Below are positions 23,156 through 45,559 of a stretch of 64,000 nt of DNA, one piece after another. Positions within the stretch are counted from its first letter, which is position 1. Each line of letters opens with the position of its first letter. The notes under the pieces were generated by a model. The model saw only the letters and a list, made by a program, of their open reading frames with translations. It searched no databases and was not told the DNA's origin. The translations under genes were made by a program, and so were the position numbers. Origin of the DNA: a virus; IMG/VR virus record IMGVR_UViG_3300021964_000026, positions 38,932-102,931 of that record, one strand, 5' to 3'.

Positions 23156-23305
23156 TCAAGCACCACACCCGCCTTTATCCATGCAGTCGGAACACTTGTT
23201 CTTCCCGCAGTTGTCGCAACACTTGCTCGCGCGGCAACCACTTTTGCCGCACTCGTCGCATCCATCACCTTTCATAATCGTCCAAGCATCGTTCATTGGG
23301 TTCAT
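23156..23305 (-). CDS. 49-residue cysteine-rich protein with N-terminal W-x-I-M-K tag
   Basis: ATG at 23305 has a GGTGAAT ribosome site and starts four bases before the previous stop region (GGTGAATGAAATG). The protein begins MNPMNDAWTIMKGDG, a clear copy of the tag seen in other proteins of this window, and the remaining 35 residues contain nine cysteines as CDEC, CRASKCCDNC, KCSDC and a final GC. This suggests two zinc knuckles or a metal-bound mini-fold. It is too short for most gene callers. Function unknown; the tag suggests incorporation into the same structure as the other tagged proteins. Confidence 0.75.
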   Translation of the reverse strand: MNPMNDAWTIMKGDGCDECGKSGCRASKCCDNCGKNKCSDCMDKGGCGA

Positions 23306-23306
23306 T

Positions 23307-23786
23307 TCATTCACCTAACCGTTGGACTCGTCGCATTGTTGACGCAGACGGCTCAAACACGCTTTGAGGGTTTTTGTCCATTGGGAATGCTTGACGATAG
23401 TCTGCACCTGCTCCCGTTTGTTCTGCTCTTTGAGCCAAACGCTGTTGTTTTGCATCGCGTCTTCGGTCCATGAAACGCTGTTTTGGTGGTCGCGAAATCG
23501 CTGACTCTTCTTGTCCTGTGTGACCTAACGATTGAAACGAGCGTTCGTCACCGACAGATGGGTGTTGCTGACGCTCCGGCCTTCCTGCCCTGTATCCGTA
23601 TTGTCCATAAGTCCGCATGTCTCTTGAAGAAGGATGTGTGTCGCCAGCATTGTAGGTTGCTCCGGGTTGTTGCACAAACTGTTGAGGTATCGTGCCTCCC
23701 GTTCCTAACCGATTCGTTCCTTGCATGTCTGCTTGTTGCTCCGGGTTTGCTTTCAACAATTTCCACGCTTCATTCATCGGATTCAT
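23307..23786 (-). CDS. Tagged low-complexity basic protein
   Basis: This 159-residue protein starts MNPMNEAWKLLKANPE at ATG 23786, with GAGGTGA six bases upstream; the longer frame to 23816 would be a read into the upstream gene and is unlikely. After the tag it is rich in Gln, Arg, Gly, Pro and Ser, probably disordered, with Arg/Lys clusters (RFMDRRRDAKQQRLAQRAEQ). It lies between the tail tube gene and the cysteine-rich tagged gene. No known family is recognised. A virion-associated, nucleic-acid-binding role is possible. Confidence 0.7.
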   Translation of the reverse strand: MNPMNEAWKLLKANPEQQADMQGTNRLGTGGTIPQQFVQQPGATYNAGDTHPSSRDMRTYGQYGYRAGRPERQQHPSVGDERSFQSLGHTGQEESAISRPPKQRFMDRRRDAKQQRLAQRAEQTGAGADYRQAFPMDKNPQSVFEPSASTMRRVQRLGE

Positions 23787-23796
23787 TCTGTTCACC

Positions 23797-25743
23797 TCAC
23801 ATATGCAAGAAAGCATCGCGCGAAATCACGCGCACATGCTTCGGCATGATTTTCAATTCACTCTTGATAACACCCTTGTCTTCGGGGATGGGGAGGGGAG
23901 CCTCCGTGATAATGTAGTCGTCAACAACAATAATGACCTCTTCGCGGTTTGCACCAGCACCAGCCTTCGTCAGCGTGAGTGTGATAGGTTCGGTGAAGTC
24001 ATGTGTTCGGTTGGTTCGGAACTCGTGCCAAATCAACGGGTCGCTGGCGATGACGGTCATGGACAATTCGTATTCCATCGTCTTTTCAATCATGAGGTTG
24101 GCGTTGCGCGAACCACCGAAGGGGATTTGCTCAAGCGAATCGCCAGCCGTGTTGCGGTCTTCGGCTTGGCTGTTGCCGCGAATGGTGTAGATGGCTTCGG
24201 TGTTGTTGTTGCCGCTCAAAGCAAAGTTTGTGACTTGCGCGATGTTGACACCAAATGAACTGATTTGTCCGTTGTAGAAGAAGAAGGGCTTCTCGGTGTT
24301 TGGCGCGATGCCAGCCTTCTTTCGGTTGATTGTGCTATTTCCGACATTCTCAAACATGCGGTGCGCGGTGTAGCGGTCGCCTTTGTTGGAGTTCTCAAGA
24401 CGACCGGTGTCGGTGTAGCAGTAGAGCGCGTCAAAGTTGATGCTCAATTTTACTTCTGCATCTGCGTCAGCCGCGAGTGAGAAGTCCTTTACTTTGCATC
24501 CTTTCCAAACGCGCGTAAGTTGTTTGCTGTCCGATGCGGAACCGGGTGCGGCTTCGTTCGCTAATGCATCCGATGTGTTAGCGTTGTAAGAACCGGTGTT
24601 GCGAGTGCGAATGCTTGATTCAAGAGCAAAAGTGGGGAGTGTAGCACCGGAGAAAAGCAGTCGCGATTGACGGTTGGTGATGGTTCCGTAGGTGGCCGCG
24701 TCGGTGTCAAAGTGCGGCGAACCGTTGGATGAAGCGGCATCATACTTCAAACGCTTGATGGTGTAGTTGCCGAGCGCGTGACTGAAATAGAATGGTTCGT
24801 CAACATGGATTCTGCGCTCGGAGAGCGTCTCGTCAACATACAACACTTGGCGGATTTCGTTTCGCTCGGCATTCTCCATTGTGATTCCTGTGCCGTCCGC
24901 ACCCCATGTTGCGCCGGAGGCGGCGGCGGGAGTGTCCTTTGGGAAGGCAACCGTTGTGCCGTCCGCGATGATGATGTAATCACCGGGGTCCGGCTTTCCG
25001 GTCATGGTTCCTGTGAAAGCGACATAGGTATCGCCAGCGGCGATGTCCTTCTTGGTATGACCGCTGGGGTCAGTCATGACTGCGCTTGGCACATCAATGA
25101 CTTCGCGACCGAGTGAGTAGTAGAGCCAACGCGCGCTGTTCATCATTATTTCCATTGAGCCGCCCTCGTTGGAGAATCGCTGTGGTTCTTGGATGACAAC
25201 ATCACGGCCTACGCCGACGATGTGCGAGCGTCGCACTTCCACTTTGGTTTCGGGAAGCGAGACGGTTGCCGCGAGGCCGATGAATTGGTCAGTCAACACC
25301 GACTCGTCAGCGGAAGCGGCATTAGCGTGATGGGTCATACCGGTGTCAATCGTGGGCGTTCCCAGCGTTTGAATGACGAGTTCATCACCCGAAGTTGAAG
25401 CAGTTGATGTGGCCTCCTTCAAATCGCGGTCAAGTGTGATTGATGTTCCAGCGTTCGCGACGATGGTGTAGGAGTTGCCCGTCGTCGCGTAGTCGTCAAG
25501 AGGGAATGTTCCGCCGCCGATGATGCGGAGTTCCGAGCCGACGAGCATGTTCTTGGGGTATCGGAGGTTGGATGAAGGAGACTCAAAGAAACCTGCGTTC
25601 GCGCCGCTAAAGGTCAACACATTGCGATTGCTTGAGTCAACTGTAAACACAAGTCCGCCAAATGAACCATGCGCGAGAACGATTCCACATTCTTTGCCGA
25701 ATGTGACCTCGGATAAGTCGCCCTTGTAAACCGTTGATACCAT
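23797..25743 (-). CDS. Major tail tube protein (large)
   Basis: This 648-residue beta-rich protein precedes the chaperone and tape measure genes, as major tail tube genes do. The motif EPQRFSNEGGSMEIMMNSAR near residue 185-205 resembles a conserved patch of large siphovirus tail tube proteins. The C-terminal part (EKTMEYELSMTVIASDPLIW and ITLTLTKAG) has the strand pattern of a tube barrel. It is longer than typical tubes (150-350 residues), implying insertions, for example Ig-like decorations. I considered a contractile sheath; no second tube gene or sheath pattern was seen, so tube is preferred. Starts at ATG 25743. Confidence 0.65.
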   Translation of the reverse strand: MVSTVYKGDLSEVTFGKECGIVLAHGSFGGLVFTVDSSNRNVLTFSGANAGFFESPSSNLRYPKNMLVGSELRIIGGGTFPLDDYATTGNSYTIVANAGTSITLDRDLKEATSTASTSGDELVIQTLGTPTIDTGMTHHANAASADESVLTDQFIGLAATVSLPETKVEVRRSHIVGVGRDVVIQEPQRFSNEGGSMEIMMNSARWLYYSLGREVIDVPSAVMTDPSGHTKKDIAAGDTYVAFTGTMTGKPDPGDYIIIADGTTVAFPKDTPAAASGATWGADGTGITMENAERNEIRQVLYVDETLSERRIHVDEPFYFSHALGNYTIKRLKYDAASSNGSPHFDTDAATYGTITNRQSRLLFSGATLPTFALESSIRTRNTGSYNANTSDALANEAAPGSASDSKQLTRVWKGCKVKDFSLAADADAEVKLSINFDALYCYTDTGRLENSNKGDRYTAHRMFENVGNSTINRKKAGIAPNTEKPFFFYNGQISSFGVNIAQVTNFALSGNNNTEAIYTIRGNSQAEDRNTAGDSLEQIPFGGSRNANLMIEKTMEYELSMTVIASDPLIWHEFRTNRTHDFTEPITLTLTKAGAGANREEVIIVVDDYIITEAPLPIPEDKGVIKSELKIMPKHVRVISRDAFLHM

Positions 25744-25763
25744 GTTGTTTGCCCCGCCCTGTC

Positions 25764-26204
25764 TTACGCGATGAGTTCCGAGAATATAACGATTTCAACT
25801 TGGAAGGTCATCCTGTGGAGTCGCTTTGTCCGGTCCGAAAGGTCAGTCCGCATCTTATAGAGTAATCGGTCAAAGTTCGCGCCATCGCCTTTTCGTTGAC
25901 TATGCACCACGCGACGAACCTCATCCTCCATTTTCATGAGGTGGCTACGACCGTTCATGGTGCGCGCATCCACGGTGATGTTGATGCGCGTGTGAACAAA
26001 GTCGTAGAACACTTCGGGTTGCTCTTCGTTGTGAACCGTTTCGTAAAGGAGGATAGCGTCTTTGTTGGTGAGGTCAAGACGCTTACCGCGACCAGCCTCA
26101 ACCGTCGTGATGTCCTCAATGATGGGTGTGCGTTGGTTCGTGTTGCCACGGTTCCAATTATCCGAGAGGATTTTTTTGATGAGTTCAACGGATTCAAGAG
26201 CCAA
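25764..26204 (-). CDS. Probable tail terminator / tail completion protein
   Basis: Start chosen at TTG 26204, which follows GGGAGG by eight bases and overlaps the upstream stop region; the longer frame to 26312 reads through the neighbour. The 146-residue product begins ALESVELIKKILSDNWNRGN, then has strand-rich sequence (EVFYDFVHTRINITVDARTM) and a C-terminal helix-strand (RMTFQVEIVIFSELIA). Size, fold pattern and place between connector and tube match tail terminators (gpU-like). Confidence 0.6.
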   Translation of the reverse strand: MALESVELIKKILSDNWNRGNTNQRTPIIEDITTVEAGRGKRLDLTNKDAILLYETVHNEEQPEVFYDFVHTRINITVDARTMNGRSHLMKMEDEVRRVVHSQRKGDGANFDRLLYKMRTDLSDRTKRLHRMTFQVEIVIFSELIA

Positions 26205-26466
26205 TAATATCCCTCCCAATTGCAGATTGTGCGCGTGCTTGTTTCTTCGCCAAAGCGACGATGTTTTTGTATTCGGGACTTGACTCGTCCATGACTTTTC
26301 CGTTCGCGTCAATCAACTCTCCTTCGCTGTTGACAGCCGCTCCGTAGTCAAGGGCGCATGCGTCAAGGAAAACGCGACCTTTGTCGCTAAACACGCTGTT
26401 CTCGCGTGCTTGCTTGACAGGCTCTATGAGAGCCTTCGCGATGGCTTTATTGATTATTTCTTTCAT
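26194..26466 (-). CDS. Small neck-region protein, unknown
   Basis: This 90-residue protein starts at ATG 26466 overlapping the connector stop (TGATG). It begins with a helix (KEIINKAIAKALIEPVKQAR) and has an acidic middle and a Lys/Arg/Ala-rich end (NIVALAKKQARAQSAIGRD). By position it is a head-tail joining component. No motif is recognised. Confidence 0.55.
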   Translation of the reverse strand: MKEIINKAIAKALIEPVKQARENSVFSDKGRVFLDACALDYGAAVNSEGELIDANGKVMDESSPEYKNIVALAKKQARAQSAIGRDIIGS

Positions 26467-28061
26467 CACAACACCGTCATCACTTCTGTGTAGCGCGGTA
26501 AGGTTTCTGCTACCTGCGCCTTGAACAACTGATACTTACTACCCAAGTCCACATTCTGCGTGCCTTCGGGCAACAGCACGCTTCGGTCGTCGGACAGAAT
26601 CAAATCCATCGCGACCAACTTCGTGCAAACATCCTCAATAGCCTTCTCAACATACCGCTCACCGTAAACATAGGACACCTTGACGGCGTTCCATGAGAAG
26701 TAGGGGTAGGAGTTGTTGAAGTAAATCACACCCATGTCGTAGTCAGCCCACCAATCACGAAGACGAGCCTCGTCGCCTGTGGTCGTGCCTACATAATCAA
26801 TTTTGAACTTCTTTTGGAGGATGGTCGCGTCAGCGACAGCCGCCGCGCTGATGTCGCCTACGAGGTCAGCAACACCGCTCATGACATTCCCGCTAAGGCT
26901 GGTGTAGTAGCCGAACGCGCTTCCAATGCTGATGATGCCGTAAGGTGCGAATCCCGTAGCGTCAGCGACCGTGATAGTGGTCGCGGTTGATGACGACACC
27001 GTGGTTGAGTTGTCGGTCGCACCGGTGAAAGTGATGCCGTCGGAGGTGCATGCGTAGGTGGCGTTTTCGCCAGCCTCACCGCGACGCATGGAGGTGATTT
27101 TGAGTTGACCGCCACCGTAGTCAGCATTCGCGGAAGCCATAAACTCGTGATGCACCGATGCGGTGATTTGCCCGTCGGTGGCGGCGGTTGTGTCTTCAAG
27201 GTGAAAGTTGGGTGAGAAATGAATCTCATTTTTCCCTTTGCGCGTATCCTTATTGATGAGGTCGGCAAGTTGTTGAGCGGTGCTAACATTGTCAAAACGA
27301 GCCGCGAACCGATGCGTGTGGTTGCTTGTGCCATCACCAGCCGTCAGCGTAGCCACACCTCCACCACCGGGACACAGAAACACTTTGTCCGTCCCAGCCG
27401 TCAGTTGCGTAAAGTCAGCCACCTTAAGTCGGATTTCAGCCGCCGCGATTTCGCGGTAATCAGCACCTTGCCATATCTCAAGGCGAAGAATCTGTTGCGC
27501 GTTGCGGAACATCAAGGGGACAGAACCCACATAGTCGGTGTAGTAGCGGCGACGGTAGGGCTTGTAGGTGTCAAAGTTGAGGTATTCAGCCGTCTGCAAC
27601 ATAGGTCGCCATGCGTTGTTTGTGAGGTTGTCAATTTTGTCTTGGGTGCGGAGGATGAGCGTTTCAACCTGCGCTTTCGTGACCCCTTTGCGTTTGCCGT
27701 TCGTGAACGATTGGAGGTTTTGCACCTGCGCGTTTGCCGCTGTGGTGTAGTCTCCTGTCAAAGCCCCTGTGAAAGAAAGACGAACATTGCCGGAAGCGCG
27801 AGCCACACTTGTGATAACTCGTTCCTCACCCATTTCGGTATCGCTGGTAATTTCAATCGTATCACCTACTTCAAACCCAACCAATCGGTAGTCTGCGGGG
27901 GAAATGTCAACATGGGTAGAGCCGTCTTCTGCGGCCAAGTAAACAGGGTCGGGGAATGGGATTTGAAGAATGTCAGCAACCTTCTGTGCGGATGTGTAGT
28001 AAAGCCTGTCGGGAAAAAGAGGACGACCTTCGCGCTCACCTGTTTGGAATACGGTCGGCAT
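26466..28061 (-). CDS. Probable head-tail connector with large inserted beta domain
   Basis: This 531-residue protein sits between capsid genes and the tail terminator. The C-terminal 90 residues (VIYFNNSYPYFSWNAVKVSY, then YVEKAIEDVCTKLVAMDLIL and LGSKYQLFKAQVAETL) look like the helical end of gp6-type adaptors. The N-terminal half contains helices (KAQVETLILRTQDKIDNLTN) typical of the same family. Between about 230 and 420 there is Thr/Ala/Gly-rich beta sequence that could be an inserted decoration domain. ATG 28061 overlaps the previous stop (TGATG). Confidence 0.6.
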   Translation of the reverse strand: MPTVFQTGEREGRPLFPDRLYYTSAQKVADILQIPFPDPVYLAAEDGSTHVDISPADYRLVGFEVGDTIEITSDTEMGEERVITSVARASGNVRLSFTGALTGDYTTAANAQVQNLQSFTNGKRKGVTKAQVETLILRTQDKIDNLTNNAWRPMLQTAEYLNFDTYKPYRRRYYTDYVGSVPLMFRNAQQILRLEIWQGADYREIAAAEIRLKVADFTQLTAGTDKVFLCPGGGGVATLTAGDGTSNHTHRFAARFDNVSTAQQLADLINKDTRKGKNEIHFSPNFHLEDTTAATDGQITASVHHEFMASANADYGGGQLKITSMRRGEAGENATYACTSDGITFTGATDNSTTVSSSTATTITVADATGFAPYGIISIGSAFGYYTSLSGNVMSGVADLVGDISAAAVADATILQKKFKIDYVGTTTGDEARLRDWWADYDMGVIYFNNSYPYFSWNAVKVSYVYGERYVEKAIEDVCTKLVAMDLILSDDRSVLLPEGTQNVDLGSKYQLFKAQVAETLPRYTEVMTVL

Positions 28062-28921
28062 CACTCATCCTCCATTCTCGCGCGATAATCAAGGAACCTG
28101 TTTTTCAAGTTTTTCGGCATTTTAGGTAGTCTTCCGTGTTCTTGATGGAAAGCGTGTATGTCGGGGAACAGGTGGTCAACTCTACCGCCGCGTGATTCTT
28201 TGCGAGTGCGACGCAGTTTTTGTTCAAACTCTTCTTGCGCTCGTCGTTGCGCTAATTGGAGGTTGTATTGTTGAACGCGAGGTGTTTCTTTTGGAGCCTG
28301 TGCTTGAGACTGTTGACGGATGCGCTGTTCTTCTGCTTGCATTTCTCGCAACTTTTGAGCGTGTTCTGCGAAACCTTGAGCCTCCATTTCTTCGGGCGTC
28401 ATTTTCAGCAACCGCCAAGCCAACTCCATCGCTTCGCCAGCGTTTTTTTGCTGAAAATCACGAATGTTTTGATTGAAGTCCCCATGCACCGAATCCTGCC
28501 AATCACTTTCCCCTCTATTGGGAGGCATAGGATTCTTTTCATTGTCGCGGCCAACATCAATCATGTTTCTTTTAGGGATGATGTTCACCCCTCGCCTCGC
28601 TCGCTCATCGGATAACCGTTGATGCCATTCCGCACTCGGTGCGACATGTTGAGCAAAGTCCAATTCCTTAGCACTCCATTGTGATACATCGTCGGGTCGT
28701 TGCGCTACCCACGATTCCCATTCTTGCGGACTCGGAACCCTTCCCATGTAACCTCCGCCTCTATTGTTAGGGTCAAACTCCAATCGCGACTGCCTCGGTG
28801 CGAATAAGCCAATTTCGGGTGTATTCAAAGGAAGTGGCGGGGTGTCCCCATGATACGCGGGAGGTTCCTCACCCGCGGCGTTATTTTTCAACAGCCTCCA
28901 AGAGAAGTTCATTGGATTCAT
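28061..28921 (-). CDS. Twice-tagged Arg/Gln-rich protein
   Basis: This 286-residue protein begins MNPMNFSWRLLKNN, and residues about 163-174 repeat the tag as EAMELAWRLLKMT. The first half is Pro, Arg, Trp and Asp rich. After the second tag come a Gln/Glu/Arg coiled helix (EEQRIRQQSQAQ) and a basic C-terminus (EFEQKLRRTRKESRGGRV). I chose ATG 28921, which overlaps the stop of the upstream zinc protein and has GAGGTGG five bases before it. The doubled tag suggests two modules of the same kind joined head to tail. Function unknown. Confidence 0.7.
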   Translation of the reverse strand: MNPMNFSWRLLKNNAAGEEPPAYHGDTPPLPLNTPEIGLFAPRQSRLEFDPNNRGGGYMGRVPSPQEWESWVAQRPDDVSQWSAKELDFAQHVAPSAEWHQRLSDERARRGVNIIPKRNMIDVGRDNEKNPMPPNRGESDWQDSVHGDFNQNIRDFQQKNAGEAMELAWRLLKMTPEEMEAQGFAEHAQKLREMQAEEQRIRQQSQAQAPKETPRVQQYNLQLAQRRAQEEFEQKLRRTRKESRGGRVDHLFPDIHAFHQEHGRLPKMPKNLKNRFLDYRARMEDE

Positions 28922-29187
28922 CAAACCACCTCTTCGGTCTTCGCGAGGTTATACTCCATCGGCTTCTTGCATGCACCGCATCGCTCAAGGTAGCAAAAGT
29001 GGAGCATGCCGCAGAAGCGGCAACGCGTGCCGGAACCGATGTTCACAATGTCTCGGATGTTGCGCGTCTTCATGTTTTGACGCTTGATAACACCCTTCAA
29101 CTTGTCGCGCTCATCGGTCTTGACCATTGATTCTTCGGCCTTACGCCAGCCTTGTTTCTCAAGGCGTTGCAGTTCACTCAAATCCAT
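28921..29187 (-). CDS. Small zinc-ribbon protein
   Basis: An 88-residue protein starting MDLSELQRLEKQGW at ATG 29187, six bases after GAGGTG; a GTG nine bases upstream lies within the ribosome site and is rejected. Residues about 55-75 read CRFCGMLHFCYLERCGACKK, a four-cysteine zinc ribbon (CxxC plus CxxC). It sits between head genes and the tagged protein. Role unknown; small zinc-ribbon proteins are common in archaeal viruses and marine phages. Confidence 0.7.
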   Translation of the reverse strand: MDLSELQRLEKQGWRKAEESMVKTDERDKLKGVIKRQNMKTRNIRDIVNIGSGTRCRFCGMLHFCYLERCGACKKPMEYNLAKTEEVV

Positions 29188-30485: not shown

Positions 30486-31634
30486 TCATTGTAGGTCGCG
30501 AATGCTCCCGCTTGCGCCAAAGAACGAACACCAAAGTTCGCCCATCGTTCGGTAAAGCCCCTCTTGTCCAAGACGGTTAATCGCGAATGGGTCGCCCGTT
30601 TCAATACCGCTTTCGTAGTATTGGGTTGGGATTGCAGTTTGGAACCACAGGTAGTCCGTGTCCAAGTAGTAAATGCGCGACAGACTGCTTGCGCCTTCGT
30701 CGGGCATGTCTTTGGTTGGAATCATGGGGACACCGTTGTAAGTCGCGACGATGAACCCAGCCTCAAGACCGGGAACACCCTTCACACCGTTGAAAGTGGG
30801 GGTCACGCGCTTGCTGTCCATGAATCGCTGTTGCGATTGGAGCAATTGCTGAACGCGCATCAAAGTGTCGTAGCCCGTAAGCATGACCTTCGGGTTGCCA
30901 CCACGAGTCCAAAGTTGTTGGAACAATCCGTCCATTTGGTTGAGGGACAGGTTGCGGTTCGCGGATAGAGCGTCAACATCAACTTCCGCGCTGTGGAAAG
31001 CGGCGGAACCATCGCGAGTGATGGAATACATGTCGTGCTTGGTTAGCGAAGTAGTAATGTGGTTGGTTCCCGTCGTCATCTTGTCCGGGTCGGAGGTGAT
31101 TCGGTCAAGAGACTCAAAGTTGTTGCCAGCGGTCGTGTCAACATCCTCAAGGAGCATGCGGTTGATGTGTTCTGCGTGGTGCTTCCCCATTTCTTCTTTG
31201 AGAACGGTGCGCACATCGCCAAGTCCATCGTCCTTGTCGGAAAGGAACATGCTCACTTCGGACAGGTCAAAAGTGTGCGCGACAGTCTTGGGCTTTGCGG
31301 CCACATGCAGGAACTCCGGCTTGGTGGTGTCGGGAAGAACGCCGTTCTCCGCGATGCCACCGCCCTTGGTGAAGGAAGCGCGCTCCGTGAGGATGCGCCA
31401 TCCACTTCGCTCCCAAGGCTTCTTTGGCAGAATGGAGAATGCGTTGAACTCTTGGTTCAATTGCGACCACACTTTGCGACCGTAGATTGCTTGATAGGTT
31501 CCCGCGGTGGTGGACAACAAAGGCGCGTCAGCCTTCAAAATGTCGCCGCTTCCGTAGGTGTAGCCGGTTTGGGACGCGCCACCGTAGTAGTAGCGTTCCA
31601 TGTCTTGAACTGTTCTTACATAATTTCGTGCCAT
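30486..31634 (-). CDS. Major capsid protein (HK97-type)
   Basis: This 382-residue protein follows the prohead protease gene (stop/start overlap TGATG) and has the strongest ribosome site of the window (AGGAGGGG, seven bases). Size and sequence order fit HK97-fold capsid proteins: an N-terminal arm, E-loop region (GWRILTERASFTKGGGI), spine helix (RTVLKEEMGKHHAEHINRML) and a C-terminal P/A-domain part with VMLTGYDTLMRVQQLLQS and AFINRLGQEGLYRT-like strands. The N-terminal about 40 residues could be a delta domain removed by the protease. The identity rests on gene order plus overall pattern. Confidence 0.85.
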   Translation of the reverse strand: MARNYVRTVQDMERYYYGGASQTGYTYGSGDILKADAPLLSTTAGTYQAIYGRKVWSQLNQEFNAFSILPKKPWERSGWRILTERASFTKGGGIAENGVLPDTTKPEFLHVAAKPKTVAHTFDLSEVSMFLSDKDDGLGDVRTVLKEEMGKHHAEHINRMLLEDVDTTAGNNFESLDRITSDPDKMTTGTNHITTSLTKHDMYSITRDGSAAFHSAEVDVDALSANRNLSLNQMDGLFQQLWTRGGNPKVMLTGYDTLMRVQQLLQSQQRFMDSKRVTPTFNGVKGVPGLEAGFIVATYNGVPMIPTKDMPDEGASSLSRIYYLDTDYLWFQTAIPTQYYESGIETGDPFAINRLGQEGLYRTMGELWCSFFGASGSIRDLQ

Positions 31635-33064
31635 CAGTATTCCCCTCCTTTGAGTGCCTTGTCAGCAAGTCGGTGAACATCGTCCCACGACATGTTTGCC
31701 AAGTCAGCAGTTTCGGGAATGGTCACGGATGCAGTCGCGGCGGACTTTGCAATCATGGATGAAGCGGATGAAACATTGTCAATCCGTTCGTTGAGCGCGA
31801 GGACAGCCTTCTGCAACTCAACCATTGGCTGGCGCGCGTCAAATCGGCTCTTGGCGATTGCGTCAGCCTCGGCTTTCTGCTCCTTGAGGAACCGGTCGGT
31901 GAAGTGGTTGTTCAAGTCCGACTTGAATTGTTGCTCGGTAGCCGCGGCCTTGAACACCTCGTAAGCGGACTCAATCTCGGACTGCGAAACATTCGCGGCG
32001 TTGAGGTAGTCGCCCTTGATGACATTCTTGTTGCCACTTGGCGCGGAGCCAAAGTTGGGCTGTGGTCGCTTGCCGGAATCGTCTTCGCCAGCACCTTCAA
32101 GGGAACCCTGTCCGCGCATGTCAAATGCACTTTCGCCGGGTCCGTAGCCCTTGTTGAAGTGGTCGCGAGCGGCGTTGGGGTCAAACCCTGCGCTCTTTAC
32201 AGTCTGCTCAAGCCACAGTAGGTAGTCGCTCGTAATCATGTCATTTCCTTTGCTCATTTTCTCATCTCCGTCTTCGTCGTCGTCGTCGTCGTCGTCCGCA
32301 TACATGCCTGTCTCTTTGTCCTCCATCATGGGAGGTTTCGGTTTCTTCTTGTCTTCACGAGCATCCATCAACGACTCTTCTTCGTTTCCGTCTTCGTCAA
32401 TGTCTTTCGTGTCAAGAAGGTCATCAAGACCCTTGTCTTTGGACTCTTTGTCTTTCTTGTCCTCGTCTTTCTCGTCAAGTTTCTTTGACAAGCGTTCAAG
32501 GACGCTTTGCAGTTCGCTCATCGTATTGGTCATGTTATCACCTGTGTCTTCCTTAAGGATACGAAATTGTGCTTCCGGGTTGATACCCTTCTCGCAAATC
32601 GTGACCTCATGGAGTTCCATACGACGGATTTCGCGGTAGTCTCCGCGGGTTTGGTCGCTCTTGTTGACGCGCTCAAAGGCTTGACCGCCAATGGAGAACG
32701 AGCGCAGGTTCCCTTTGCGGATTTCCGAAGCCACTTCACGCGCCTTCTCAATGTCGCCGCGTAGTTTGATAACAACAAACATGCCGGTGTCGTCCACTTC
32801 GGACTTCCACATGCGACCGGATGAATCGGTGTAGGAAGGGATGACCGTTCCCACTTGGATGTTGGAGTGTGCGAGTTGCACATTGCGAAAACCATCGGCT
32901 TTCATGAACTTGCCGAACGCGTCTTTGAGTGCCGAGCGAGTGATGAGGTCGCCCTGCTTGTCAACCATCTCAACCGACGCGTATCCAGCAACAACCAAAT
33001 CGTTCCCAAGACCCTTCAAAATGATGGGGTCCGAGGAAGAAGAGGGAGCCGCGAGAATCGCCAT
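31634..33064 (-). CDS. Prohead protease (S78-type) fused to scaffold
   Basis: Residues 1-170 form an HK97-type protease: VVAGYASVEMVDKQGDLI (24-41), candidate catalytic His66 in QLAHSNIQVG, Ser124 in RSFSIGG, and MELHEVTI (149-156). Residues about 180-300 are a charged linker with a run of Asp encoded by a TCG repeat (32272-32297). The C-terminal 170 residues are helical and scaffold-like, ending SSMIAKSAATASVTIPE, then MSWDDVHRLADKAL. The protease is expected to cleave the scaffold and capsid protein after assembly. The C-terminal motif is also found in the gene at 39483-39836. Confidence 0.88.
   Translation of the reverse strand: MAILAAPSSSSDPIILKGLGNDLVVAGYASVEMVDKQGDLITRSALKDAFGKFMKADGFRNVQLAHSNIQVGTVIPSYTDSSGRMWKSEVDDTGMFVVIKLRGDIEKAREVASEIRKGNLRSFSIGGQAFERVNKSDQTRGDYREIRRMELHEVTICEKGINPEAQFRILKEDTGDNMTNTMSELQSVLERLSKKLDEKDEDKKDKESKDKGLDDLLDTKDIDEDGNEEESLMDAREDKKKPKPPMMEDKETGMYADDDDDDDEDGDEKMSKGNDMITSDYLLWLEQTVKSAGFDPNAARDHFNKGYGPGESAFDMRGQGSLEGAGEDDSGKRPQPNFGSAPSGNKNVIKGDYLNAANVSQSEIESAYEVFKAAATEQQFKSDLNNHFTDRFLKEQKAEADAIAKSRFDARQPMVELQKAVLALNERIDNVSSASSMIAKSAATASVTIPETADLANMSWDDVHRLADKALKGGEY
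32272..32297 (-). repeat. TCG microsatellite encoding an Asp run
   Basis: A tandem trinucleotide repeat on the plus map that codes on minus for eight or so consecutive Asp residues in the acidic linker between the protease and scaffold domains. Such tracts are prone to slip and vary in length. Confidence 0.8.
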
Positions 33065-39141: not shown

Positions 39142-39486
39142 TCAATAATAATCGGTGATGGTGTATGCGGATTCGGGGTTTTTGTCGGAGGGGTCGCCTG
39201 TTTTGTTCTCGCGCATATCAACCGTATTCGGCCATCCAGCATGCGTCTTGAGTTTTGCTTCCTCTTTCTTCGCACCGGTGTTCTTGACATCCTCAACCTC
39301 AATCTGTTGCTGGTTCGTCCAATAAGTGCCGGGGCGAACCTTGTCAACACCACGAACGCTTTCAAACGAGTCGCCGGTCTTTGACCCCAACTTCGCGTCA
39401 GCCTTTTCCATCAATTCGTTGGCCTGTTTGATGAGTTCGTCAACATCGGGCGCGTGTTGCCCTGCTCCAACCTTCATTGGCTTCAT
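39142..39486 (-). CDS. Small charged head protein, unknown
   Basis: This 114-residue protein starts MKPMKVGAGQHAPDVDEL at ATG 39486, after a strong AGGAGGATTGACCA site, and overlaps the previous stop (ATGA). It has an N-terminal helix (IKQANELMEKADAKLG) and a polar, probably extended rest ending AYTITDYY. It lies between the scaffold-like gene and the 2015-residue gene. Not recognised. Confidence 0.55.
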   Translation of the reverse strand: MKPMKVGAGQHAPDVDELIKQANELMEKADAKLGSKTGDSFESVRGVDKVRPGTYWTNQQQIEVEDVKNTGAKKEEAKLKTHAGWPNTVDMRENKTGDPSDKNPESAYTITDYY

Positions 39487-39836
39487 TGGTCAATCCTCCT
39501 TCCTTCAACTTGCGCGGCTTCGTTTGCCATCGCGTGAATCTCATCCCATGACATTTCATGCCATTCTTCGTTTGATGATGGCATGCTCATACCTGCGTCG
39601 TCAATCGCGGCGGCGGCTTTGCTGATAACGGTGTCTCGGTCGCCACGGAGTGGGTCGCCCCAAACATCCTCGTTTGCGGGAGTGTTAGCGCGAACAAATC
39701 CAGCGCGCTTGAGCAGAAGTTCGGGTGTGTTCATGCTCTTACGCATGGCGGACAATTCGGCATCCATCGTTTCCATTTTGCTGATGAGTGCTTTCATCAG
39801 CGTTATTGCGTCTCCGGATTCTTCCGACACGCTCAC
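39483..39836 (-). CDS. Scaffold-like protein sharing the protease-scaffold C-terminal motif
   Basis: The 117-residue product has a coiled helix (ALISKMETMDAELSAMRKSM), a middle LLLKRAGFVRANTPANEDVW, then VISKAAAAIDDAG and a C-terminal EMSWDEIHAMANEAA. The last two parts align with the end of the protease-scaffold fusion (MIAKSAATA and NMSWDDVHRLADKA). In other viruses scaffold C-termini bind the capsid protein, so this may be an auxiliary scaffold. Start GTG 39836, or better GTG 39830, which lies five bases after AGGTG. Confidence 0.6.
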   Translation of the reverse strand: MSVSEESGDAITLMKALISKMETMDAELSAMRKSMNTPELLLKRAGFVRANTPANEDVWGDPLRGDRDTVISKAAAAIDDAGMSMPSSNEEWHEMSWDEIHAMANEAAQVEGRRIDQ

Positions 39837-40177
39837 ACCTGTCCTTGCTTCTTGAAGTGGCTACCGATTCGGTCGGGGCCAATGTAGCCCATTGGACGGT
39901 CGCCCGATTTCGCGATAACACCTTGCGTGCTGTTGAATTGCATCACAGGTGCGCCGCCAGCAAACACATCATTGACACCAAGAATGCGGTCGTTTTGTCC
40001 GGTTTGGGCTTTGTAGATATGACCAACATCATCCGCGAGGTAGTCGCTGGTTTGCTGAATGCTTCGTAGGAATTGTTCGGCTGAAACGAGGTCGTTGTTA
40101 GCGAGCGCGACCTTGAACTCACTCAATGAAGTTTCAAGTTTGCGCACCATCGGGTCCATCTTTTGCAGTAGGCTCAT
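39833..40177 (-). CDS. Small helical protein after the portal gene
   Basis: This 114-residue protein begins with a long amphipathic helix (PMVRKLETSLSEFKVALANN, then LVSAEQFLRSIQQTSDYLAD) and continues with a Gly/Gln-rich strand part (GGAPVMQFNSTQGVIAKSGD). The ATG at 40177 directly follows a small hairpin that separates it from a GGTGAA ribosome site. It may be a scaffold helper or head joining protein; no family is recognised. Confidence 0.55.
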   Translation of the reverse strand: MSLLQKMDPMVRKLETSLSEFKVALANNDLVSAEQFLRSIQQTSDYLADDVGHIYKAQTGQNDRILGVNDVFAGGAPVMQFNSTQGVIAKSGDRPMGYIGPDRIGSHFKKQGQV

Positions 40178-40200
40178 GCGTCCGACGAGGACGCTTCACC
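40178..40200 (-). promoter_or_regulatory. Hairpin between ribosome site and start codon
   Basis: On minus the order is GGTGAA, then GCGTCC, loop TCGTC, GGACGC, then ATG. The six-base-pair GC-rich stem fills exactly the space between ribosome site and start codon, so folding would bring the two next to each other. It could tune or switch translation of the gene at 39833-40177. Confidence 0.5.
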
Positions 40201-40208
40201 ACTTTAAC

Positions 40209-42056
40209 CTATTGGAAACCGCTTTCTTTCTGTTTTGAAGTCGGGTCTTTCGCGGCTTGAACGCTGTCAAGAGCCTGTTCAAGCGGTGTCTTTTCACTTC
40301 CGCGTTGATTCTTTTTGGAAGAGGGTGCGCCCGATTGATGGGTTTCGGAACTGATAGGTGCAGGGCCACGGTCGCGCTGACCTGTGCCTTCACCAAGTCC
40401 GATGGCCTTCTCCATCATCATGATTTGACCGCCTCCCTGCGGTGGGGGTCCTCCCCCACCGGGGGGAAGCCCTGCCCCCGGCGGCATCATCGGACCCCCA
40501 CCCTGTGGAGGTATGCCGCCCCCCGGCGGCATGGGTGGAGGCATACCGCCACCCGGTGGCATACCGCCACCCGGTGGCATACCGCCCATCGCGCCACCCT
40601 GTTGTTGCATGGCGGCTTCTTGTGGGTCGGGTTTCTTGTAAACGAAGCGTATGTCGCTCCCAGCATCTTCGGTCAATTCCGGCTGGAAACCAAGTGCTTG
40701 CATACGCTGTGCGATGTTGACTTCCTGTTCGTCGCGTCGCAGTCGTGTGATTTCATCCTCTTCCTCGTTTGGATACAGCGTGAGCGACCAATCGTGAACG
40801 CCCATTTGTTCAAGCAATCGTGGGAACAATTCACGCGAATACAACTTTTGACCCGATTCAACAGCGCGGTTGGTCACAAGGATTTGCATACCCTCGTTAT
40901 TGAGTCCACCCGATTTACCCGCGTCCATCATGAACACATTGGATACACCGTAGAAAGCGGCGATACGCATGCGGATTTCGTCGCGAACCTGCGCGTATTG
41001 CATTTCATCAAGACTATCCATGAAGCGAACAAACTCAACTTTACCACGACCCGATGCTGATTCAACACCAACCTTCGGGATGTAGTGAGGGTCGCGTTCC
41101 ATTTTCTCTTCTGCGCCTTTCCAAAACGAAGCGGTGGATTGAATGTTGTCCGTGGTGATAGCGAGAACGCCACGAGGAATACGACGCTTTTGATACGCGA
41201 GGTAGATGTAGTTGTCCATCGCGGTGAGTGATTGCGCCTGTCGCCACATGCTGGCTACGGGTGAGCGACCGTAGAGTTTTGACGGATTGAACTTTGAGAT
41301 GTGCAACACTTCACCGTCAATGTAGTATTGCGTCTTTCCACTACCGGCGGTGTTGATGTAGTGAACATCTTGGAGAGGCAAACCGCAGTTGTGAACTTCA
41401 CACTTTTTGTGGTCGCCGTTGTGGGGATAGGTCTTATCGCGATGCACAGGACACAGAAGGTATCGTCCTCCGCGCTTACCTGCTTTGTCAGCCACAATGC
41501 GCATGAAAGTGGGGTCGCCACGCACCAACTCTTTGATGCGGAAAAACTCAATTTCACCGTTCTTCGGGTCAATAAAATACTCCTTGATGAGCAAAAGAAA
41601 CGCGTCATCAACGATGTCCAAGTCCCATTCAATCTCTTTCATCACCTCAATGAAGGATTGGTCCATGCTGTTGCGTTGTTTCATCAACCAGCGCGGGTAA
41701 AGGATTTGGTCAGCGTCGGGGGTTTCAAACTCTTCTTGACCGCAAATGCGACATTGACTCACCGTATCGTGTTGATACTCTTCTTCACAGTTCGTGCATT
41801 TCTTGTGAAACTTCTTCTCCCAATAGTAGCCGCGACGAAAAATCTCTTGACATAGCGTGTTAATGGTCGTGCGGAGGATGATGGATTCTTGAACGGTCGC
41901 GTAAAGCGCAGGGATGGACACACCTTGGACGAGAACGGGTTCTTGGATACCCGTCTTCCAAAGCGGCATTTGTGGTTCGGGGGTTGTTCGGCGGCTAAAC
42001 GGCTTCGTCAATGTTGACAAAAAACGACCGACTAAGCCTCTTTCTTCGGCCATCAT
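40209..42056 (-). CDS. Portal protein with zinc-finger insertions
   Basis: This 615-residue protein lies between terminase-linked and protease genes and has a portal pattern: SIPALYATVQESIILRTTIN, LYGRSPVASMWRQAQSL, then FVRFMDSLDEMQYAQVRDEI and FYGVSNVFMMDAGK, ending with the clip and crown region. Cysteines 87, 90, 102 and 105 (CTNC, CRIC) form a probable zinc ribbon, and a second His/Cys cluster (CPVHR, CEVHNC) follows near residues 200-225. The C-terminal part is an unusual Pro/Gly/Met-rich, probably flexible tract (about 480-560) and a charged tail. It makes the dodecameric ring through which DNA enters. ATG 42056 or 42053. Confidence 0.85.
   Translation of the reverse strand: MMAEERGLVGRFLSTLTKPFSRRTTPEPQMPLWKTGIQEPVLVQGVSIPALYATVQESIILRTTINTLCQEIFRRGYYWEKKFHKKCTNCEEEYQHDTVSQCRICGQEEFETPDADQILYPRWLMKQRNSMDQSFIEVMKEIEWDLDIVDDAFLLLIKEYFIDPKNGEIEFFRIKELVRGDPTFMRIVADKAGKRGGRYLLCPVHRDKTYPHNGDHKKCEVHNCGLPLQDVHYINTAGSGKTQYYIDGEVLHISKFNPSKLYGRSPVASMWRQAQSLTAMDNYIYLAYQKRRIPRGVLAITTDNIQSTASFWKGAEEKMERDPHYIPKVGVESASGRGKVEFVRFMDSLDEMQYAQVRDEIRMRIAAFYGVSNVFMMDAGKSGGLNNEGMQILVTNRAVESGQKLYSRELFPRLLEQMGVHDWSLTLYPNEEEDEITRLRRDEQEVNIAQRMQALGFQPELTEDAGSDIRFVYKKPDPQEAAMQQQGGAMGGMPPGGGMPPGGGMPPPMPPGGGIPPQGGGPMMPPGAGLPPGGGGPPPQGGGQIMMMEKAIGLGEGTGQRDRGPAPISSETHQSGAPSSKKNQRGSEKTPLEQALDSVQAAKDPTSKQKESGFQ
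40430..40600 (-). repeat. GC-rich repeat tract encoding Pro/Gly/Met repeats
   Basis: Short degenerate repeats of about 15-18 bases (for example the ACCCGGTGGCATACCGCC unit seen twice on the plus map near 40551-40585) code for PPGGGM-like units in the portal C-terminus. It is a coding repeat, not a CRISPR array: no spacers are present. Confidence 0.7.
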
Positions 42057-43444
42057 ATCATCTCCACAAGTCGGTTAGCGTCGTCAAGGAGACGAAGGGT
42101 TTCACCATCCCGACTGAATAGCGCACGCACTCCCGCCTCATCAATGTTCCACTCCTTAAGCAATTCTTCACGCTTGTCCGGAACATCCTTCCAATTTAAC
42201 CATTTGACGATGCGATAAAGTTCATCGCGACGCGATTTGATAATGTCAGTTTTCCGACCGCGCAAATCAAGCAATTCAAGGACAGCACCCGCTTGTCCCT
42301 TCTTCATACGAAGGTGCGGACGAATACCCTTCATCAATGCGCGAAGGTCGTTTTCGCTGTAAAATTGAAGACGATGTTGTGTGCGTCGGCTGTTCTTGTG
42401 GATTTTCAAATCGGTTTGAAGCACACCACAACCGAGGGCTTTGTGCAATTGTTCGCAATGCAACTTCCCCCGCTCACCTGTCGCGATGAAACCAGCACGA
42501 GGCTCAAGCCGCTTGGTGATGGTGATGTAGCCATCAGCGTCAAGGAAGCCAGCGGCGTAAGCCCACACATCCTTGAAAATCACGGTGTTATCGCGAACGA
42601 TTCCCCACCCTGCACCGACTTTTTCAATGTCGTATTCTACACCATGCATTTTGAACAGCGCGCTTAGTTGCGGTATTGAAAGGTGTTTGGTGTTTTCCAT
42701 GCTCGCAAACACTTCACTCGCAGGTAAAGGTCCGCGCTCTTCAAGCACCGTCGCGGCTTTTGTCAAGTAAATTGCATCGGTCTTTTTGATGTTGTCAACC
42801 GAATGGAGACTGTTTCGCCACTCTTTTTTTGCATTCTTTTTCAGTTGTTGCGCGTCAACCCACATCTGCCGTTGTTCTTCATTGAAGTCGCCTTCAATCA
42901 ACAGCAACTTGCTGATGATGTCGTTCGCTTTTTCCCATTGCACGCAAGCACGACGAAGTGCATATTCACGCGTTTGACCGTGTTTGCGGAGTGCGAGCAA
43001 ATCGCGTTCGCTCACACCCAAATTGCGAACGGTTGATTCGTGCTTCCCAATCCAATCAATGGATTGAAGCGTAGCCTCCACTTCCTGTTTCTTCGCAATG
43101 CGGATGGCGTCAATCGCGTGGTCAATGGCTTCGCGCATTTCTTTATGCTCGCGTCGTGCCATACGGAGGTCTTTGACCAAATCCCCAGCACCACGACCGA
43201 ACATTGATTGAAACCAACCACCGTCGGGGAGAGAACGGTTGAGTTGTTGAGCAACTTCCCGCGCCATCTGTTTCTTTTTTTCTTCTTCCTCTACTTCGTT
43301 AGGGCGCGGAGGTGTAGGGTTTGCGTTGGCTTCACCCTGTCCTTGAGACACAGGCATGGGTGCATCACCAAATGTCGGACCCTCAATGACATTCTTCAAC
43401 AACGGATTGTCGCTGAACATGTCGGGGTCCGACAAATCAATCAA
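42053..43444 (-). CDS. Packaging-region protein with winged-helix and LAGLIDADG domains
   Basis: This 463-residue protein starts at TTG 43444, overlapping the stop of the preceding small gene as TTGA, with GGGGGCGAG six bases upstream. Its N-terminal 220 residues are charged and helical (coiled coil, with LVKDLRMARREHKEMREAID). Then TKAATVLEERGPLPASEVFA and SIPQLSALFKMHGVEYDI form a likely winged helix. From about 290 it reads AYAAGFLDADGYITITK, a clear LAGLIDADG motif with the acidic catalytic residue, followed by HPHLRMKK-like and GAVLELL segments typical of homing endonuclease folds. Gene order between terminase and portal suggests a packaging function, as HNH nucleases have in other phages. 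Confidence 0.7.
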   Translation of the reverse strand: MIDLSDPDMFSDNPLLKNVIEGPTFGDAPMPVSQGQGEANANPTPPRPNEVEEEEKKKQMAREVAQQLNRSLPDGGWFQSMFGRGAGDLVKDLRMARREHKEMREAIDHAIDAIRIAKKQEVEATLQSIDWIGKHESTVRNLGVSERDLLALRKHGQTREYALRRACVQWEKANDIISKLLLIEGDFNEEQRQMWVDAQQLKKNAKKEWRNSLHSVDNIKKTDAIYLTKAATVLEERGPLPASEVFASMENTKHLSIPQLSALFKMHGVEYDIEKVGAGWGIVRDNTVIFKDVWAYAAGFLDADGYITITKRLEPRAGFIATGERGKLHCEQLHKALGCGVLQTDLKIHKNSRRTQHRLQFYSENDLRALMKGIRPHLRMKKGQAGAVLELLDLRGRKTDIIKSRRDELYRIVKWLNWKDVPDKREELLKEWNIDEAGVRALFSRDGETLRLLDDANRLVEMI

Positions 43445-43608
43445 TACGCTCGCCCCCAATACAATGCAAAATCAATTTTGCATGTTAGGCATTTGTCCGA
43501 TTGCAAAGTCGCTTTTTTGCATTTGCGACATACCGTCGCGTAACGAATGCGCTTCGGCAACTTTCTCCGCACTTTGTGCTTGAACACATCGTAGTGTTTG
43601 CTCGGCAT
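43441..43608 (-). CDS. 55-residue basic zinc-ribbon protein
   Basis: ATG 43608 overlaps the stop of the upstream gene (TGATG) and TGA 43441-43443 overlaps the next TTG. The protein begins MPSKHYDVFKHKVRRKLP and has two CxxC pairs (CRKC at 27-30 and CLTC at 40-43), a compact zinc ribbon on a basic body (KRIRYATV). It is too short for ordinary ORF cut-offs. Probably nucleic-acid binding. Confidence 0.75.
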   Translation of the reverse strand: MPSKHYDVFKHKVRRKLPKRIRYATVCRKCKKATLQSDKCLTCKIDFALYWGRAY

Positions 43609-44477
43609 CACCACTTCACCTTATCCGCCCAATACGCGGCACTCATCGGACCGCGTGCTATGTTCTTTCGGTGTCGCGACTTGAATGACTTGCGTTTTGC
43701 TTTCATCCGCGCGGATTCACCAGCCTTCGGTTTACCTGCAACGCTTGCGCCCTGCTCACCGAAGCGAATTGTTTTGACTTTGCCGCCCGAACGAGCGACA
43801 ACAATGTGCGACTTCTTGGGATGGTCGGGTGTCTTCTTCGGCTTGTTGTAGCCTTCCACACCCGCACGCTCAAGGCGCGTGTCTTTCTTGAGAAGCCGCC
43901 AAGAAAGGTTCATTGGATTGCCTGTGCGAATGTCGGGGTGTCGCATGTTGCGAAACGAATTAGGCATGTTTTGTGCTTCATCAATTTCTTGCGTGATTAT
44001 TTGAGGACGAGGCGCGTCAATCTCAATGTAAGGGTCTTCCTTCGGTTTGTTAGGGTCGGGTCGTAATGCCCCTCCTGTCAGCATATCAAAGAATGCATTG
44101 CCTGTCTTTTCATTCGGGTCAACGCGCGTCGTCGTGGTTTTAGTAGGAGTCACTTGTCCGACTTCAACTCCAATAAGACCGCGGTGAGGCTCTCCTTGAG
44201 GTAAATTGCTTCCTTGCATCGCGCTTGCCGTGTTCGCAATGCAGTCGTCCGTGGTGCATCCGATGCCACCATGCCCCATGTGGACTTTGTTGCCTCCGCA
44301 TTCATACGGACAATCGCCGCCTATGTCCATGCTGGCTGGATTGTATTGAGTGATGGAGTTTCCTTGTTGGTCATACGCGTAAGGAACAGAATGAACAGGG
44401 TGGTTAGGGTCCTTTACCCTCTCCCATTGTTCCATGTAGTCTTCCTGTTTGAGAAGAAGCCACCAATCGTCGCTCAA
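43608..44477 (-). CDS. Twice-tagged protein with C-terminal basic module
   Basis: I chose TTG 44477, five bases after GAGGTGG and overlapping the upstream stop as TTGA; the product then starts MSDDWWLLLKQED, a version of the tag. A second tag copy, NPMNLSWRLLKKD, lies near residue 187-199. Between them is a Cys/His patch (CPYECGG, CTTDDC). The C-terminal 65 residues form a basic module (KVKTIRFGEQGASVAGKP, then RMKAKRKSFKSRHRKN and AAYWADKVKW) that I have seen as a recurring module in marine phage proteins. Function unknown; it may bind DNA or pack into virions. Confidence 0.7.
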   Translation of the reverse strand: MSDDWWLLLKQEDYMEQWERVKDPNHPVHSVPYAYDQQGNSITQYNPASMDIGGDCPYECGGNKVHMGHGGIGCTTDDCIANTASAMQGSNLPQGEPHRGLIGVEVGQVTPTKTTTTRVDPNEKTGNAFFDMLTGGALRPDPNKPKEDPYIEIDAPRPQIITQEIDEAQNMPNSFRNMRHPDIRTGNPMNLSWRLLKKDTRLERAGVEGYNKPKKTPDHPKKSHIVVARSGGKVKTIRFGEQGASVAGKPKAGESARMKAKRKSFKSRHRKNIARGPMSAAYWADKVKW

Positions 44478-44887
44478 CAATTCCACCTCTTCAATGCCGC
44501 TCCCTTCGGGGTCAACTTACCCTTCTTGGAGGTTGGACCTTTGACGCCACTCATCCGCGCGCAAAAAGACTTCCTACGACCAGCGGCTTTGCCACCAGCC
44601 TTGAGTTTGCTTGGTTTCTTTGTGACAGGTCGCTTGAGGTTCGCGCCTGTTTTGCGCTTGGCGGCGGCACGACCTTTTGCATTCAAACCGCCTGTGCGCG
44701 CATGTTTGTTCTTGTTATAGCCGTGAAACGGTTTGCTTTTACTTTTGGCTTTGAGAATCGCCATGCTGATTTCAAACGGAGTGCAACATGTGCAAAAAGA
44801 GACTTCTTTCGCGATGTCATCATCATACATCGCAATCAACTCTTCCGCGGTGATTGGCTTGTGATAAATCAATTCAAACTCACTCAT
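44474..44887 (-). CDS. Basic protein with SFCARMSG module (DUF6321-like)
   Basis: This 137-residue protein has an acidic helical start and a CTCC pair, then a Lys/Arg/Gly-rich stretch and the C-terminal RRKSFCARMSGVKGPTSKKG ending LTPKGAALKRWNC. This last module recurs in marine phage and some algal virus proteins; I recall it as DUF6321. A weak tag variant (PFEISMAILKAK) is seen at about residue 37-48. ATG 44887 follows GAGGGG. Role unknown; strongly basic, so possibly DNA binding. Confidence 0.65.
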   Translation of the reverse strand: MSEFELIYHKPITAEELIAMYDDDIAKEVSFCTCCTPFEISMAILKAKSKSKPFHGYNKNKHARTGGLNAKGRAAAKRKTGANLKRPVTKKPSKLKAGGKAAGRRKSFCARMSGVKGPTSKKGKLTPKGAALKRWNC

Positions 44888-44891
44888 TTTG

Positions 44892-45359
44892 TCAACCCCT
44901 CGTCAAATGATGATACCCGCATATACATGGGTATGTGTTGATTCTATAACCCACTTGCTTTGATTGATACGCTCTATCGGGTTCCGCGTGCGCGGGAGAT
45001 TGGTATTGATTCTTCTTCGGAGTAGGGCATTTTTCACCTGTTGGTGTGTCGTAGCCACCGCCCTTCATGAAAAGCCACGCATCATCCATCGCTTTAACGA
45101 TGGTGGGCTTTCCGCCTACACCCTGCTTTTTACTACGCTTGCGTTTTGTTGCCGCGCGCTTTTGACCCGTTGACATAGAGCCGCTGGTCTTGGGAGTTTT
45201 GCTTGATACCTTAACGGATGGGCGACACTTGGGGTAGCCCTTTGAGGAAGTCTTGGCTTTGCTTCGGCCACAGGGAGGATGCTTACCGTCCTTACCTGTG
45301 CGCGAAACATCCACCCACTTCTCCTTGAACCAACGGTTCAAGTTCTTTTCAACCGTCAT
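44892..45359 (-). CDS. Basic protein with DUF5872-like module and tag
   Basis: ATG 45359 overlaps the previous stop (ATGA). The N-terminal module FKEKWVDVSRTGKDGKHPPC followed by GRSKAKTSSKGYPKCRPSVK is like DUF5872, found in viruses of marine microbes. It is followed by a Lys/Arg-rich stretch, the tag KAMDDAWLFMKGG (about residues 89-101), and a C-terminal Cys/His patch (CICGYHH). The order is basic module, tag, variable tail. Confidence 0.7.
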   Translation of the reverse strand: MTVEKNLNRWFKEKWVDVSRTGKDGKHPPCGRSKAKTSSKGYPKCRPSVKVSSKTPKTSGSMSTGQKRAATKRKRSKKQGVGGKPTIVKAMDDAWLFMKGGGYDTPTGEKCPTPKKNQYQSPAHAEPDRAYQSKQVGYRINTYPCICGYHHLTRG

Positions 45360-45559
45360 TTTCCAGCCCACGCATCACAAGTATAGTCTTCGTGGCAGTT
45401 AAAATCATACCACTTACAGTAGCCCGTCTTTGGGTCTTCTGTTGCTGAATCGTCCCACGCTTTGCAGTTGCCGCAACACTTCTTGTTTTCACAAGGGCGA
45501 TAATTCGGCGCGTCTTTCTTGGCTTTCATCAAAGCCCACGCTTCTTCAAGAGGAATCAT
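45356..45559 (-). CDS. Small Cys-rich protein with N-terminal tag
   Basis: ATG 45559 (GGGG upstream, overlapping the previous stop as ATGA) gives a 67-residue protein starting MIPLEEAWALMKAKKD, again the tag at the very N-terminus. The body has CENKKCCGNCKAW, then GYCKWYDFNC and YTCDAW, a metal-binding domain with eight Cys/His ligands. The longer frame to 45616 runs through the neighbour and is rejected. Function unknown. Confidence 0.7.
   Translation of the reverse strand: MIPLEEAWALMKAKKDAPNYRPCENKKCCGNCKAWDDSATEDPKTGYCKWYDFNCHEDYTCDAWAGK

Follow-up and report, generated by a model that had tools for sequence, protein, structure and literature searches.

Among described systems that load proteins into viral heads, the closest comparison is with bacteriophage T4, in which N-terminal capsid-targeting sequences (CTSs) package Alt together with basic proteins; the first 10 residues of the internal protein IPIII are enough for packaging, and Alt is an ADP-ribosyltransferase (ART) that enters the cell (PMC9026906, PMC7411985). 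In giant phages (SPN3US), long N-terminal segments of ejection proteins have been proposed to target the prohead (PMC7411985). Here we describe a short peptide tag that recurs in otherwise unrelated proteins encoded in a 64,000-nucleotide stretch of viral DNA (the window), comprising bases 38932-102931 of the 102,931-bp record of an archaeal tailed virus, IMGVR_UViG_3300021964_000026. The tag is a modular element of 12 residues, is restricted to one type of head module and to the late strand, and co-varies in sequence within genomes. By analogy with T4, it is likely to be a docking helix that loads late proteins of one archaeal tailed-virus lineage into the procapsid.

The likeness to the T4 CTSs, which are carried by IPI-III and Alt, consists in a short N-terminal peptide present on unrelated small basic proteins and an ART, in a virus with a prohead protease (PMC9026906, PMC7411985). 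As with a CTS, the tag is shared by unrelated cargo proteins whose domains also occur untagged, and it is accompanied by a prohead protease and an HK97-fold head module in 23 of 23 records. It differs from the CTS in its sequence, its occurrence in an archaeal virus lineage, the much larger number of cargo families, the existence of internal copies, and the lack of a visible cleavage motif. The archaeal tag is too short for a homology test, and we claim analogy rather than descent. The SPN3US propeptides comprise 100-130 residues and are cleaved after a Glu motif, whereas the archaeal tag has 12 residues with near-invariant A-W and L-K. The Druskaviridae (HVTV-1, HCTV-1, HCTV-5) resemble the viruses studied here in having a related capsid protein and a recurring short module (RVYVDSPSEAPEGVQVQQG..GG.YY; EWVSDPTEQAPNRWTNTETGEHRYQ) in head-region proteins with zeta-toxin domains, but this module is unrelated in sequence and non-helical in appearance, and the AWxLLK tag is absent there. 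The module was located at L129:13623-18018 and L130:12968-19561 (HVTV-1, HCTV-1), and in the phage collection it was confined to these viruses apart from weak matches. No description of the tag was found in the literature on magroviruses, archaeal ejection proteins and archaeal capsid targeting, in a non-exhaustive search that covered few subscription journals.

Tag copies in the window

All eight strong W-x-[LIF]-[LM]-K copies listed in the preliminary description of this DNA were confirmed in frame on the minus strand, in six different open reading frames (ORFs), with W codons starting at 23284, 23765, 28900, 28417, 44462, 43901, 45077 and 45538. The N-terminal placement ascribed to the peptide applies to five of them; the other three (28417, 43901 and 45077) are internal, and each precedes a second cargo segment. 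Among the weaker copies proposed earlier, 'MAILKAK' (44474-44887) is a genuine W-to-M variant with the homologues ADAFEVAWDILKAKKKSKPFHGYN (L087) and MNPMDEAWAVLKAAKKKKSKPFHGYN (L026), and 'AAWLLK', near the C-terminus of the 2015-residue protein, is misspaced (W-L-L-K) and regarded as a chance match. A further copy, DNPLNVMDAAWALLKGN, is encoded outside the window on the late strand of the same record (G000:C1:36407-37936). The copies within the window are as follows.

23270..23305, minus strand: tag MNPMNDAWTIMK at the N-terminus of a 52-residue Cys-rich protein (ORF 23156-23314); related tagged gene IMDIMSDAWTILKGEDCDECGKKGC in L006/L038
23751..23786, minus strand: tag MNPMNEAWKLLK at the N-terminus of ORF 23307-23816, likely start 23786; tagged relative MKPIDEAWALLKARPEIQAHLQGT in L016/L030/L032
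28403..28438, minus strand: internal tag GEAMELAWRLLK of ORF 28061-28924, ahead of the second cargo segment (MTPEEMEAQGF...)
28886..28921, minus strand: tag MNPMNFSWRLLK at the N-terminus of ORF 28061-28924
43887..43922, minus strand: internal tag GNPMNLSWRLLK ahead of the phrog_7595 domain, ORF 43608-44486
44448..44483, minus strand: N-terminal tag variant ELLSDDWWLLLK, ORF 43608-44486, which probably starts with TTG at 44477; L103 has the homologous N-terminus MNPFDNAWRIIKDEAYDKVKNPEHAVHHVP
44750..44776, minus strand: degenerate tag FEISMAILK (W to M) ahead of the DUF6321 domain, 44474-44887; relatives FEVAWDILK (L087) and MNPMDEAWAVLK (L026)
45063..45098, minus strand: internal tag VKAMDDAWLFMK after the DUF5872 domain, ORF 44892-45371; also in L037 and L103
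45524..45559, minus strand: tag MIPLEEAWALMK at the N-terminus of an 86-residue Cys-rich protein (ORF 45356-45616, likely start 45559); tagged relatives in L008, L026, L037, L061 and L081

When the residues of the 46 minus-strand ORFs (21,026 residues) were shuffled 2000 times, the pattern W.[LIFMV][LMI]K, seen 8 times in this proteome, occurred 0.46 times on average and at most 4 times, and the longer pattern NPM..[AS]W.[LIFMV][LMI]K, seen 4 times, occurred in no shuffle. Synonymous codons vary between the copies, in agreement with the preliminary description, and it is therefore the peptide rather than the DNA that is conserved.

Consensus and predicted structure

The 12-residue consensus is M-[NTS]-[PA]-[FM]-[DEN]-x-A-W-x-[LVI]-L-K. 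The frequencies by position are M 70%, [NTSD] ~80%, P/A 94%, F/M/I/L, D/E/N 84%, x, A 97%, W, x, L/V/I, L 89% and K, with positions -4, -1, +2, +3 and +4 relative to W being constrained by the search pattern. The [NTSD]-[PA]-x-[DEN] start has the form of a classical helix N-cap, hydrophobic residues at i, i+3, i+4 and i+7 share one helix face, and the AlphaFold2 model of the tagged protein L064 has a helix at residues 3-18, where the tag lies. From the sequence and this one model, we infer that the tag is probably an amphipathic alpha-helix, some 12 residues long, with an N-cap.

The tag begins within 30 residues of the start of the open frame in 174 of 208 non-redundant proteins. Many tagged starts (L009, L012-L014, L016-L018 and others) are preceded by a common leader that reads RCCD[NST]|M in frame and contains AGGTG, perhaps a common ribosome-binding leader. 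A second motif, T[ML]HPA[IV], stands 22-56 residues past the tag in 10 tagged proteins (L039, L046, L062, L075, L076, L086), and the spacer RQ[ST]TLGE[FY]HPD[FL]PS is common to different tagged cargos.

Distribution and within-genome co-variation

When starts of the MNPM[DNEK].AW..LK type were sought with a 43-bit DNA pattern, 46 IMG/VR stretches matched, with an estimated expectation of ~0.01; a relaxed 36-bit pattern matched 103. Across ~0.95 Mb of pattern-matched viral loci, the tag pattern was found in 302 ORFs, as compared with 1 in reversed DNA, and in loci with several tags all of them lie on one strand (44 of 44). The largest tagged island, that of L095, packs 13 tagged ORFs into 13.5 kb. 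The 208 non-redundant tagged proteins (90% identity) form 118 clusters by post-tag sequence (single-linkage BLASTP at 1e-4), a number in which distant homologues are possibly split, so the true count of unrelated families is lower, certainly dozens. The 36-bit pattern gave 9 isolated matches in 84,980 prokaryote genomes, which is about the chance level, with no archaeal match and no cluster of tags; a host-wide motif was rejected on this ground.

The residue at position -4 is coordinated between unrelated proteins of one genome. After removal of all tags selected by the search patterns, the choice of F versus M/L/I agreed in 85% of pairs, compared with 53% after permutation, and 0 of 5000 permutations reached the observed value, which is not a strict probability because related genomes share ancestry. 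This co-variation suggests one genome-specific receptor shared by the tags.

Modularity and cargo proteins

The preliminary description had named descent within a single protein family as one outcome that would speak against a targeting role. The tag is spread over the 118 post-tag clusters, and single-family descent was rejected since the HD, phrog_7595 and KptA/DarT-like domains exist both with and without it. The HD phosphohydrolase domain is preceded by MNPFDQAWALLK in these viruses, and its untagged homologues in Aggregatibacter phage S1249 and Pseudomonas phage phiPsa374 begin directly at the domain. The phrog_7595 domain of ORF 43608-44486 makes up a separate tagged gene in L004/L007; its homologues in cyanophages, roseophages and one Vibrio phage have no tag and begin at or just past the tag position. 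The window's own genome encodes a KptA/DarT-like domain without the tag (MTRYYHATP...) in an early gene, L117:16878-17321 (G000:C1:16878-17321), and a late island of G003 encodes a tagged copy (MTAFDAAWALVKAPWYYHATP...); the two are 49% identical over 109 residues. When the untagged protein alone was used as an IMG/VR query, no relatives were found, and an alignment search of 40 records returned only the two known copies. Because untagged homologues begin where the tag ends, the tag behaves as a grafted module. The MTPEEMEAQGF segment is likewise a stand-alone tagged gene in L006 (MSVFEKAWRILKMTPEEMEAAGF) and L091/L102 (MNPFEKAWLLLKMTPEEMEAAGF); since their downstream segments are separate tagged genes elsewhere, the internal tags at 28417 and 43901 look like fusions of tag-cargo units.

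The HD and GNAT domains of tagged proteins score above the Pfam cut-offs, DUF6321, DUF5872 and phrog_7595 are small basic tagged proteins, and other tagged proteins are Cys-rich. Scans of 129 tagged representatives against Pfam and PHROG returned no family naming the tag, and the Pfam scan no ART family; L117, L095:5305-5739 and L095:9795-10298 had no Pfam match. For two ART candidates, phmmer found no match among PDB sequences, and fold comparison was what worked. By Foldseek, the predicted structure of tagged L064 has an ART-superfamily fold, with KptA/Tpt1 and other ART-fold enzymes as top PDB matches (E 0.014, probability 0.99; BFVD E 3.6e-5). The YYHATP family, modelled through its untagged L117 member with a predicted local distance difference test score (pLDDT) of 79, matched archaeal Tpt1 (PDB E 1.7e-5, probability 1.00). 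According to these models, two tagged families share the ADP-ribosyltransferase/KptA superfamily fold, and they are predicted host-modifying enzymes for which either ADP-ribose transfer or a KptA-like action could be envisaged. The HExxH signature occurs in several tagged proteins (L034:4338-5312, L075:1301-1942, L068:2400-3044, L098:1071-), those of L034, L075 and L068 being without a Pfam match; the signature suggests that these proteins could be metalloproteases.

Association with the head module and the late strand

The window encodes the following head and packaging proteins.

30486..31634, minus strand: major capsid protein of HVTV-1 type, marking the head module that always accompanies the tag
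31634..33064, minus strand: S78 prohead protease with a long C-terminal extension
40209..42056, minus strand: likely portal protein, from its sequence and its place between the terminase large subunit (TerL) and protease genes, as in HVTV-1/HCTV-1
45778..47181, minus strand: TerL, adjoining the tagged cluster 43608-45616

All 23 tag-bearing whole records have the HVTV-1-type capsid protein, TerL and the S78 protease, and this capsid protein is found in 0 of 14 control genomes. In the 23 tag-selected records, 183 matches to GCNTGGNNNNTNNTNAAR fall on one strand versus 6 on the other, with 3 for the reversed-pattern control. A tag-blind sample gave the same picture. Selection by capsid protein yielded 473 relatives in IMG/VR and 44 records of at least 20 kb, 39 of which contain the tag pattern, with 123 matches on the capsid strand versus 1 on the opposite strand and 3 for the reversed-pattern control. 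Family B DNA polymerase (PolB), found in 14 of the 23 tagged records, is always on the strand opposite the tags. Taken together, the shuffles and the reversed-DNA, strand and reversed-pattern controls led us to reject a chance origin of the tag.

Proposed role and alternative explanations

The earlier proposal of a reused N-terminal helical targeting tag is supported in part: it survived every test that was run (modularity, many families, head and late-strand linkage), with the correction that three copies are internal and AAWLLK is no copy. A short portable helix, present once per cargo, encoded by late genes of viruses with one head type and attached to basic and ART-fold proteins, matches T4 capsid targeting, and from this match we infer a role of the tag in docking cargo inside the procapsid. 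The tag would bind one common partner in the growing procapsid, for which the scaffold part of the protease, the interior of the capsid protein and the portal are candidates; the long C-terminal extension of the protease is itself, from its architecture, a candidate scaffold. A variable set of small basic or zinc-binding proteins and enzymes would then be enclosed in the head and would enter the next host cell together with the DNA. More broadly, it seems rather more plausible than not that an entire marine archaeal virus lineage directs rapidly exchanging injected effectors (ART-fold, HD, GNAT, zinc) into its virions by a single helical address code that co-evolves with the head module. These effectors would be an archaeal counterpart of the T4 internal proteins, drawn from roughly ten times as many cargo families.

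Several observations weigh against packaging into the head. Most cargo proteins lack a recognisable function, and the ART model of tagged L064 is of medium confidence (pLDDT 74; PDB E-value 0.014). T4 CTSs are cleaved, but the residues that follow the archaeal tag show no conservation of a cleavage motif (at most 1.3 bits of information). In 34 of the 208 proteins the tag starts further than 30 residues from the beginning of the open frame; a free N-terminus cannot therefore be a general requirement. HVTV-1 and HCTV-1, which are cultured relatives, are without the tag, and the co-variation at position -4 could alternatively arise by recombination between tag-coding 5' ends.

Among other explanations, docking to a non-structural hub, such as the viral thermosome, a replication or assembly compartment or a host factor, would concentrate or fold late proteins without packaging them. 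The co-variation requires a shared partner and leaves it unnamed, and a thermosome gene is present in 13 of the 14 PolB-bearing tagged records, being missing in G001, perhaps an incomplete record. However, no early or replication protein of the window's genome is tagged, the tags are encoded on the same strand as the head genes, the capsid protein, protease, portal and TerL are themselves untagged, and the linkage to the head module is complete (23 of 23), so that we regard such a hub as unlikely. Presence or absence of the thermosome was dropped as a discriminator, being uninformative at 13 of 14. Loading into or onto the tail or baseplate instead of the head would equally suit the late strand, and several tagged genes flank tail-region genes (window 22-29 kb); the bulk implied by islands of up to 13 tagged ORFs is better suited to the head than to a tail lumen, and many islands lie on the TerL side (e.g. 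G002, G020), which makes this quite unlikely.

An amphipathic helix with a conserved Trp might also serve as an in-plane membrane anchor, but membrane helices seldom show near-absolute A-W and L-K identity or co-variation specific to each genome, features that typify a protein groove, and internal copies exist; we consider an anchor very improbable. Finally, the repeated peptide could be a by-product of DNA, either a recombining 5' end or a translation-start leader, with no role as protein. The copies are mostly at start codons, many of them behind the Shine-Dalgarno-like leader RCCD[NST]|M, but synonymous sites differ, internal copies stay in frame, and A-W-x-x-L-K is kept as amino acids across the 118 clusters, which leaves this explanation barely credible.

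If head packaging by the tag is true, the tag would represent an address system built independently of that of T4, the second of its kind, and effectors would become predictable by tag instead of by homology. A simple sequence search would then list the virion-delivered proteins of uncultured archaeal viruses, about whose takeover strategies hardly anything is known, and foreign proteins could be loaded into archaeal virus capsids.

The carrier virus and additional observations

In the phage collection, the capsid protein of the window matches only archaeal viruses, with HVTV-1/HCTV-1 as the best matches at ~33% identity. The first 35 kb of the record encode, on the strand opposite the late genes, a thermosome, a clamp-loader-type AAA protein (RFC), PolB, an ERCC4 nuclease and an SNF2 helicase. 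The carrier fits a Magrovirales-like archaeal tailed virus, having its replication genes on one strand and its morphogenesis genes on the other, PolB, RFC, a chaperonin, an HVTV-1-related capsid protein and a genome of ~90-115 kb; the match is to the published description of the order (PMC10768690). The G+C content of the window record is ~52%, and that of the one named aoguangvirid is 31.5%. Members of the order Magrovirales have been linked to Poseidoniales (PMC10768690), which are the presumed host of the window virus.

The C-terminus of the protease (31634-33064) contains, near 31693, a conserved peptide LANMSWDDVHRLAxKALxGG that is present in at least 16 relatives, and the same MSWD[DE][IV]H motif is present in a separate small protein (39483-39836, near 39554) and in L103; this peptide is a possible scaffold-shell binding helix. 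The protein encoded at 42053-43459, just upstream of the portal gene, has GFLDADGYI, a LAGLIDADG-like endonuclease signature. Two very long ORFs are located on the late strand, at 3962-19291 (5109 residues) and 56065-62997 (2310 residues).
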